NCBI GenBank assembly: GCA_947624355.1
Contig: CANQKI010000001.1
Location: 1 to 64,000, forward strand
Source: an uncultured Clostridia bacterium
GTDB taxonomy: Bacteria > Bacillota > Clostridia > Christensenellales > Aristaeellaceae
Direction: 5' to 3'
DNA: 64,000 nt
Shown here: positions 14,552 through 17,211 of the stretch, piece after piece
How positions within the stretch are numbered: the first letter of the stretch is position 1
Layout of the letters: each line of letters starts with the position of its first letter
The notes under the pieces: generated by a model
Seen by the model: only the letters and a program-made list of their open reading frames with translations
Told to the model about the DNA's origin: nothing
Databases searched by the model: none
Made by a program: the position numbers and the translations under genes

Positions 14552-15424
14552 TCACTCCACATTCTGCACCTGTTCCCGCAGCTTTTCAATTTCGCTTTTG
14601 GCCGCCACCACAAGCTTAGTGATGGCGGCGTCCGATGCTTTGGAACCGATAGTGTTGACCTCGCGGTTCATTTCCTGGGTCAGAAAATCCAGCCTTCTTC
14701 CTGCTTCGCTGTTCGATTCGAGAGTTTCCCGCATCTGCCCGATATGGGATTCGAGGCGGGCAAGTTCCTCATCAATAGCGCACCGATCGGCCATCAGCGC
14801 AACTTCCTGAGCCAGCCGCTGTGGATCAATTTCCTGCGTGCCAAGCTCCCGAAGCCGTGTCTGCAGCCTTTCCTGATAGGCCTTCGGAACGCCTGGCGCA
14901 AGAATGGCGATTTGCCGCCTGTGTTCCGCCAACGTTTCCAAGTGAACGATCAAATCGCTTTTCAGGGCTGCTCCTTCTTTTTCCCGCATGGCGATCACCT
15001 GTGCGAGGGCCGTTGACGCGGCTTTTTCAAGCAGCGTCAGCACGGCTTCTTCGTCTTCTTCGCAAACCGTCAGCCGCAGCACATCCGGCTGCGAAGCAAT
15101 GAAAACTGTCTCTCCATCACAATCGCCGTTTGTCATCTGCCGAAGCTTGTTCAGCACATCCCTGTACTGGCAGGCAAGCGCTTCATCCACCCGCACTTCC
15201 CTGGCATCGGCCCGGCTGTTTAGATAGCTCGCGCTGATTTCGACGTGCCCCCGGGAAAACGCTGCAGATACCTGGCGGCGCAAAGAATCCTCCGCAAAAG
15301 ACAGGGCTTTGGGCAGCCGGAACGCGATATCCAGGAAACGATGGTTGACCGTTTTTATCTCAATTGTGATTTCGCGGCCGTCCGCTTCCATTCTGCATCT
15401 GCCATAGCCCGTCATGCTCCGCAT
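14552..15424 (-). CDS. yicC: YicC family protein (YicC-like endoribonuclease)
   Basis: MRSMTGYGR, EIKTVNHRFLDIAFRLP, C-terminal REQVQNVE. Confidence 0.94.
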   Translation of the reverse strand: MRSMTGYGRCRMEADGREITIEIKTVNHRFLDIAFRLPKALSFAEDSLRRQVSAAFSRGHVEISASYLNSRADAREVRVDEALACQYRDVLNKLRQMTNGDCDGETVFIASQPDVLRLTVCEEDEEAVLTLLEKAASTALAQVIAMREKEGAALKSDLIVHLETLAEHRRQIAILAPGVPKAYQERLQTRLRELGTQEIDPQRLAQEVALMADRCAIDEELARLESHIGQMRETLESNSEAGRRLDFLTQEMNREVNTIGSKASDAAITKLVVAAKSEIEKLREQVQNVE

Positions 15425-15452: not shown

Positions 15453-15482
15453 ATTATACCACAATTCAACACCCAATGAAAA
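15453..15482 (-). promoter_or_regulatory. Putative promoter of the yicC-led operon (extended -10 TGGTATAAT)
   Basis: TATAAT at 15453-15458 on minus strand preceded by TGG, about 30 nt upstream of yicC start. Confidence 0.6.
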
Positions 15483-15502: not shown

Positions 15503-15544
15503 AAAAAATTACGGGGAGTCTGCCTCTTAAGGCATACGCTCCCC
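15503..15544 (-). terminator. Rho-independent terminator downstream of 46-aa ORF
   Basis: Minus strand GGGGAGcgtaTGCCttaagaGGCAgaCTCCCC followed by TAATTTTTT. Confidence 0.8.
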
Positions 15545-15564
15545 GCAGCCAATCCTTAATAACG

Positions 15565-15705
15565 CTATTTCTTCAGTACCTCCCAGGCAGAATTGCGCCG
15601 CATCCACGGGCTTTCCCAGCCGTTGCGGGCATATTCCCGAAACGCTTTGCAAGCGCTTCGCCTGGCACTCAGCCGTTCTCTCAGATCATATACCGAAAAT
15701 CGCAT
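15565..15705 (-). CDS. Unlisted 46-aa small protein, Arg/Trp-rich
   Basis: ATG preceded by AGGGGGGAAGGCAAA; MRFSVYDLRERLSARRSACKAFREYARNGWESPWMRRNSAWEVLKK; terminator directly downstream; below ORF-track length cutoff. Confidence 0.6.
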   Translation of the reverse strand: MRFSVYDLRERLSARRSACKAFREYARNGWESPWMRRNSAWEVLKK

Positions 15706-15750
15706 TTTGCCTTCCCCCCTCAGGCGTAGGATGCAGCGATACCCAAAGTT

Positions 15751-17211
15751 TTATACCGTTTTATCCTTCCATTTGCCGCTGGCGAAGCGGGGATAAAAGC
15801 AAAGAAACCGGACAATCAGTTCCGACATGCCGAACATCCATGCCCCCGTCAGTTTGAGCCCCAGTACGTTTACAGCCAGCACGGCCATGGCGGGCCGGAA
15901 CGCACTGACGCTGAACGTGGAGCAGATTGCCACGTACAGGTTGTCTCCAGCTCCCCGGAGTGAGCCGGACAATACAACAGCGCTGGTCTGAAATATCTGC
16001 ACGGCGGCCAGCACCAGCAGCGTTTCCCCTGCATACTGAACCACCAGGTCGGCATTGGGCGTATTTGCACCGATAAACAATGCCGCCAGCCGGTATCGGC
16101 TCAGGGCAATCACCAGCCCCAGTACAATGGATATAATCACGGCAAACCGTTGGCAGACCTTGCCGTACAGCATGGAAAGATCGGGCCGCTTCCGCCCCAG
16201 GTTCTGCCCCACCAGCGCCGTGGCCGCAACGCCCAGGCCGTCGCCGAAGGTGAACGTCAGGTTGAGCAGCTGCATGCAAATTTGATTGGCCGCGTACATG
16301 GCCGTGCCAAGGGAAAACATAATGCGGGCATACACGAAAAAGCCGAAGCGCATACCCACTTGCTCAATGGCCGCGTTGCCGCCAACCCTAACAATGGAAC
16401 GCATGCTTTCTTTATCGAATTTCCAGGAATCGTGAATGGAAAAATGAAGATAGCCTTTGTATTTTCCGCCCAGCATCACCGTGCCGAGGGCCAGCAGCAG
16501 GCCCACGCACATGCCAATTACGGAAGCAATGGCCGCGCCCCGCACCTCAAGCCGCGGGAAGCCCAGATTGCCGCCGATAAAGCAGTAATTGAAAAAAACG
16601 TTGGTCAGATTGCTCAGGATGTTGACCCACATGGTGATCCGCGTTTTTCCGACGCCCCGCTGAGCCGCGCAGATGCACATGGAAAGGGCGTTGATGGGCA
16701 GCGAATAATTCATGATGCGGAAATAATCCATGGCGTCCAGCAGTACTTTTTCGCTCTCTGCCTGGTCGCCGCCCGCCAGCAGCATGAGGGGCCTGTCAAA
16801 GACTGTGGCCAGCACCATCAGCACAACGGAAAGTCCCAGGGCCAGCATCAGCGCGTTTCGCAGCGTCATGTTGGCGGCCCCCTGCCTTTCTTCGCCGCGC
16901 CGCCTGGCCACAATGGCCGTGACGCCCACGTTCAGCGCGAAGAACAGGCACAAAAGCACCATTCTGGGCTGCGTGGGCAGGCCGACGGAAGAAAGGGCCT
17001 CGGCCCCCAGCATATTGCCCACCATCATTGTATCCACCGAGCCGATCAGGCTGACCAGCACCATTTCGATCACGGAGGGAAGCGCGATATGCCATACATC
17101 CTTATACGCCGTCTTGGCGTCCGGCAGTTCCCCCAAACGGTGTTCCGGCTTCACCATATATTCGGGAGAAAAGAAGCGGTTGAGCCAATTTAATTTCACT
17201 TCTTTCGACAC
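15751..17211 (-). CDS. MATE family efflux transporter
   Basis: 12 TM pattern, ALPSVIEMVLVSLIGSVDTMMVGNMLGAEALSSVGL. Confidence 0.9.
   Translation of the reverse strand: MSKEVKLNWLNRFFSPEYMVKPEHRLGELPDAKTAYKDVWHIALPSVIEMVLVSLIGSVDTMMVGNMLGAEALSSVGLPTQPRMVLLCLFFALNVGVTAIVARRRGEERQGAANMTLRNALMLALGLSVVLMVLATVFDRPLMLLAGGDQAESEKVLLDAMDYFRIMNYSLPINALSMCICAAQRGVGKTRITMWVNILSNLTNVFFNYCFIGGNLGFPRLEVRGAAIASVIGMCVGLLLALGTVMLGGKYKGYLHFSIHDSWKFDKESMRSIVRVGGNAAIEQVGMRFGFFVYARIMFSLGTAMYAANQICMQLLNLTFTFGDGLGVAATALVGQNLGRKRPDLSMLYGKVCQRFAVIISIVLGLVIALSRYRLAALFIGANTPNADLVVQYAGETLLVLAAVQIFQTSAVVLSGSLRGAGDNLYVAICSTFSVSAFRPAMAVLAVNVLGLKLTGAWMFGMSELIVRFLCFYPRFASGKWKDKTV

Follow-up and report, generated by a model that had tools for sequence, protein, structure and literature searches.

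Between the gene for a MATE-family exporter and yicC, in a 64,000-nt stretch of an uncultured Clostridia genome (the whole stretch analysed, hereafter the window), lies a gap of 326 nt that contains an open reading frame (ORF) of 46 aa. Does this ORF encode a protein, and, if so, does that protein belong to the exporter beside it? A sequence-only reading had proposed an overlooked gene for a basic, Trp-rich small protein with its own ribosome-binding site and terminator, and had suggested a small regulator, a nucleic acid-binding peptide, or a peptide linked to the exporter. The ORF that we recovered is identical in sequence, length, and composition (12 Lys/Arg, 5 Asp/Glu, and 3 Trp); Pfam confirmed the neighbors on both sides, with the MATE stop codon 45 nt upstream of the small-gene start on the same strand, and a ribosome-binding site was indeed found in the purine-rich stretch at about 15710-15721 (Table 1). 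An ORF of 46 aa in such a gap is unremarkable alone, and it is its conservation that places it above chance.

Table 1. Features of the small-gene locus, with coordinates given in the window.
Feature	Position	Strand	Basis and remarks
MATE-family exporter gene, upstream neighbor of the small gene	15751..17211	-	Pfam PF01554, E 1e-45
Sigma-70-like promoter upstream of MATE	17267-17239	-	Promoter scan
Shine-Dalgarno region AGGGGGGAAGG, purine-rich	about 15710..15721	-	Sequence and folds; accessible in the window species
46-aa small-protein gene	15565..15705	-	ATG at 15705-15703, TAG stop; conserved in two genera; pN/pS 0.37
Intrinsic terminator behind the small gene	about 15503..15546	-	G+C-rich stem, then T6
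yicC promoter, beyond the terminator	15453..15482	-	TTTTCA-18-TATAAT with TG; promoter scan
yicC endoribonuclease gene, downstream, independently promoted	14552..15424	-	Pfam PF03755/PF08340

Conservation and Selection Within the Genus

By comparative sequence evidence, the window ORF is a genuine, overlooked small-protein gene. The ORF recurs at the same place in nine further species of the genus, with matches at E 1e-10 to 8e-8 per genome and orthologue identities of 41-51% (10 copies in 29 genus genomes). These relatives are metagenome-assembled Clostridiales/Christensenellaceae genomes, several of them from rumen or omasum. A search of 100 related genomes gave clear matches in the same genus only, and a profile of the ten orthologues (A1), built from the same ten copies that it recovers, hit 10 of the 29 genus genomes at E 1e-19 or better and nothing else convincing there. 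The expected bias toward synonymous sites was strong: in the aligned core of the ten copies pN was smaller than pS in 45 of 45 pairs (pN 0.27, pS 0.73, ratio 0.37), and variability was highest at third codon positions. The copies keep the motif RRKARxAFREYARNGWxSPWxRKNxLW, with A21, Y25, N28, G29, W30, W34, and N38 invariant. All ten are open, free of frameshifts and internal stops, and the one that lacks an ATG, GTG, or TTG at the aligned start (G021) may use an internal start or a rare start codon.

Intergenic hairpins in several species could suggest that the ORF arose by chance inside a conserved RNA or DNA element and is not a gene. This explanation is barely credible, however, given the synonymous bias in every pair, the ten copies without stops, the lack of an Rfam match in the window, and a protein motif held in common with a second genus despite differing DNA.

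Homologues in a Sister Genus and the Predicted Product

That second genus, g12, was reached by a profile search of 308 family genomes, and 6 of its 11 genomes carry homologues (G039, G123, G277, G274, G206, and G170, the last at a contig end) that have ALREIRRNGWRSP in common and start with a short hydrophobic stretch (MFIFLVRVF). None of the six copies shows a MATE gene as neighbor; nearby lie a TraX-family gene, a divergent unassigned gene, and in some genomes an AAA ATPase gene, or in G123 a shikimate kinase gene. At five g12 loci (L122-L125, L130) a conserved TATGCC-N17/18-CATAAT-like arrangement occurs some 45-70 nt upstream of the small gene, between it and the divergent gene (MANSAKSPF...), and perhaps represents overlapping divergent promoters or an operator.

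Outside the two genera, no further convincing members were found in 396 order and 391 class genomes among the candidates scored per genome, whose limited number means that distant relatives may be missed. Phages and plasmids searched with a consensus-like query yielded no relative, and the small protein had no profile match in Pfam, NCBIfam, PHROGs, or the PDB. Weak family, order, and class matches (L059, L060, L062, L063, L064, L138, L143) were discarded as lying within or antisense to other genes or as containing stops. Also discarded were the g32 matches (L126, L127, L061), in which the reading ALRVYAANGW comes from conserved, apparently non-coding, riboswitch-like DNA upstream of oxidoreductase genes. 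In these three loci the riboswitch-like stretch is located near locus position 1500 (CTCCAAGCCGC...GGGTATATGCGGCCAATGGGTGGCGGGGGCAAC...GATGCGAAGGAG), and in two of the three a gene with a MSDKKRFL-like start, encoding a Tat-type, Fe-S-cluster protein, begins a short way downstream of the stretch; from its resemblance we take it to be a candidate molybdenum-cofactor RNA.

The AlphaFold2 model of the small protein, which is of moderate confidence only (mean pLDDT 72, pTM 0.40), contains a helix at residues 5-27 and two short helices. The main helix has a negative mean hydrophobicity and holds 7 basic residues, and no transmembrane helix or stretch was found in the genus copies. The protein is predicted to be soluble and basic, with one helix (5-27) followed by a Trp-rich NGW-x-SPW tail.

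Transcript Boundaries

The proposed terminator was borne out: a stem (GCGGGGAG...CUCCCCGU, -23.4 kcal/mol) followed by TTTTTT stands behind the small gene; an inner loop in its arms causes a simple consensus scan to miss it. Terminators of differing sequence occupy the equivalent position in 6 other species, which brings the total to 7 of the 10 genus copies. In species where MATE lies beside yicC and the small gene is absent, such as G004 and G007, a terminator-like hairpin is visible by eye directly 3' of MATE; in the seven species just counted the terminator comes after the small gene instead, which fits a small gene that is the last cistron. The promoter scan found no consensus promoter between MATE and the small gene in the window, and the promoter upstream of MATE suggests that the two genes are probably on one transcript. 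From this layout we infer co-transcription; the simplest map is probably a single MATE-small-gene mRNA that runs as far as the terminator, plus an independent yicC transcript.

Two further sequence elements were seen at these boundaries. The MATE stop (15751-15756) reads GTATAA in 9 of the 10 species that carry the small gene and in 1 of the 13 that lack it (Fisher p 1e-4, a count confounded by shared ancestry), and is a possible -10 box for the small gene, with no -35 match. Before yicC, a TGTGgTATAAT-like extended -10 box is kept across the genus regardless of the upstream context.

A small Trp-containing ORF that is followed by a terminator and lies upstream of another gene also has the outline of a leader peptide, whose own translation would control the terminator and thereby yicC. 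Yet yicC has its own promoter-like sequence beyond the terminator, the G012 and g12 copies are not upstream of yicC at all, selection acts on the whole protein core and not on a codon run, and no antiterminator was found. We give this explanation next to no weight.

A Hairpin at the Start Site

In most copies from both genera, predicted folds pair the Shine-Dalgarno sequence within the 3' side of a hairpin stem, as illustrated by CGGCGCAUCCUUUCCAUAGGAGGGAUGCGCUG in G001 and by AAAGCCCUUCUGCG...CGCAGGAGGGCUUU in G274. Five members of the genus gave hairpin z-scores of -3.3 to -5.5, four others -1.4 to -2.1, and five g12 copies -4.3 to -6.0, while the window's own copy has no start-site hairpin (z +1.5). 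Measured against a background of 38 window genes, the start regions were more structured both for all copies (p 1e-6) and for the genus alone (p 3e-4); Shine-Dalgarno accessibility differed from that of the 38 genes in the whole set (p 0.008) and showed no difference in the genus alone (p 0.16). Paired positions change on both sides between species, from G-C to A-U and from G-C to C-G, as read from hand-aligned stems and not from a formal covariation test, and these changes are evidence that the pairing has been maintained through sequence change in both genera. Runs of A and T border the g12 hairpins, which might thus double as terminators; a conserved GTGCATA motif precedes them, possibly as a -10 box or as a continuation of the stem.

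A hidden ribosome-binding site brings type I toxin-antitoxin modules to mind, in which a small hydrophobic toxin, usually a membrane peptide, is paired with an antisense RNA antitoxin. The small gene could likewise encode a small toxin or membrane-active peptide silenced by the hairpin over its ribosome-binding site: it is small, basic, and patchily distributed, its Shine-Dalgarno sequence lies within a very stable hairpin in many copies, and the start of the g12 proteins is hydrophobic. However, the genus copies lack a transmembrane helix, the gene is single-copy and stably inherited in synteny, no phage or plasmid relative was found, and the window copy has no hairpin. On balance we consider a toxin rather improbable.

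Linkage to the MATE Exporter

Within the genus the small gene is always found directly 3' of an orthologous MATE gene (10/10 copies), and yicC comes next in nine. In the remaining genome, G012, the MATE-small-gene pair precedes an acetyltransferase-like gene, with yicC at another location; by position, then, the small gene is partnered with MATE and not with yicC. A related arrangement was seen in G016, G024, G008, and G012 (L100, L104, L106, L109), where MATE is separated from yicC and a GNAT-like acetyltransferase gene comes after it; among these four, the small gene intervenes between the two in G012 only. The genus has 24 MATE orthologues: the small gene accompanies 10 of them and is missing beside 13, and the remaining one is truncated at a contig end. 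Mapped onto the MATE tree, the root of which is not fixed, this distribution needs three changes, and is best read as ancestral presence of the small gene with repeated loss; the poorly resolved yicC tree needs more.

The suggestion that the peptide is linked to the exporter therefore stands within the genus as far as position goes, but the 13 MATE orthologues without the small gene count against it, and farther afield the picture differs: the g12 homologues are elsewhere, and a MATE homologue at E 1e-60 was present in only two of the six g12 genomes with the small gene, on other contigs, and not found in the other four. Judged from gene order, the exporter link is positional, not obligatory. 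The same observations bear on the main rival to our own reading, namely that the MATE exporter has the peptide as an accessory subunit or modulator, which binds and tunes the pump as AcrZ does AcrB. The invariable adjacency within the genus, the pair kept together in G012 away from yicC, and a plausible co-transcription all speak for it; against it are the exporters that lack the small gene, the g12 copies, none of them seen beside MATE and four of the six in genomes with no MATE homologue at E 1e-60, and a small protein that, unlike AcrZ, has no transmembrane helix. We regard an exporter subunit as unlikely, though it is the alternative to be taken most seriously.

Proposed Role

Our preferred reading, put forward tentatively, is that of a last-cistron gene with hairpin-gated translation in most relatives, whose product is a small regulator that binds RNA or the ribosome and is not a fixed part of the exporter. 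The small gene would be transcribed as the last cistron of the MATE mRNA, which would end at the terminator at 15503-15546. In most relatives the hairpin would hide the Shine-Dalgarno sequence, and little protein would be made until the hairpin is opened; predicted folds suggest that the window species has no such gate on translation. The protein would then act by binding RNA or the ribosome. We prefer such binding to a fixed place in the exporter because of the charge of the protein, its lack of a membrane helix, and the homologues away from MATE. Judged by composition, RNA or ribosome binding is the most likely activity, a view that we take with moderate to low confidence; that the product is a controlled small regulatory protein is probable.

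What might open the hairpin is suggested by other genes. Translational coupling has been reported to fade beyond roughly 30 nt (PMC12548453), and the spacing of more than 40 nt between the MATE stop and the small-gene start exceeds this distance. We therefore set aside coupling to MATE as the probable opener, though some coupling may occur, and the hairpin might require a factor of its own to open it. In ugtL a sequestered Shine-Dalgarno sequence is opened by CspC (PMC8896665), which offers a precedent for an RNA chaperone in this role. A more speculative extension, and a distinct long shot, is a feedback loop in which a new family of RNA- or ribosome-binding regulators binds the hairpin over its own ribosome-binding site, a control that would have been lost in the window lineage.

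Comparison With Known Systems

The gene described here belongs to a well-supported small-protein family of uncultured gut bacteria that was previously unassigned and is new with respect to Pfam, NCBIfam, PHROGs, and the PDB. Its start-site hairpin appears to be kept through sequence change in two genera, and the tempting reading in which the peptide belongs to the exporter is made less likely. AcrZ, a small accessory protein of AcrB, is a transmembrane helix that serves an efflux pump of the RND type. Like AcrZ, the small protein is about 50 aa long, and within a single genus its gene is linked to that of a multidrug exporter; in contrast to AcrZ, it is basic, is probably a soluble helix, is encoded next to a MATE gene, and is found at loci without an adjacent MATE gene too. 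With genes that have a sequestered Shine-Dalgarno sequence, such as ugtL, it shares a hairpin over the ribosome-binding site and a translation that is expected to need opening; sequestration is strong in five genus copies and in g12, weaker in other genus copies, and not seen in the window copy. It is also alike in kind to the uncharacterized small-protein families of the global microbiome collected in the GMSC catalogue (PMC11364881) and sORFdb (PMC11796252). As in those families, a conserved ORF of fewer than 50 codons with no domain match was found by comparative genomics, whereas here the genomic context, the selection, and the start-site hairpin are documented as well.
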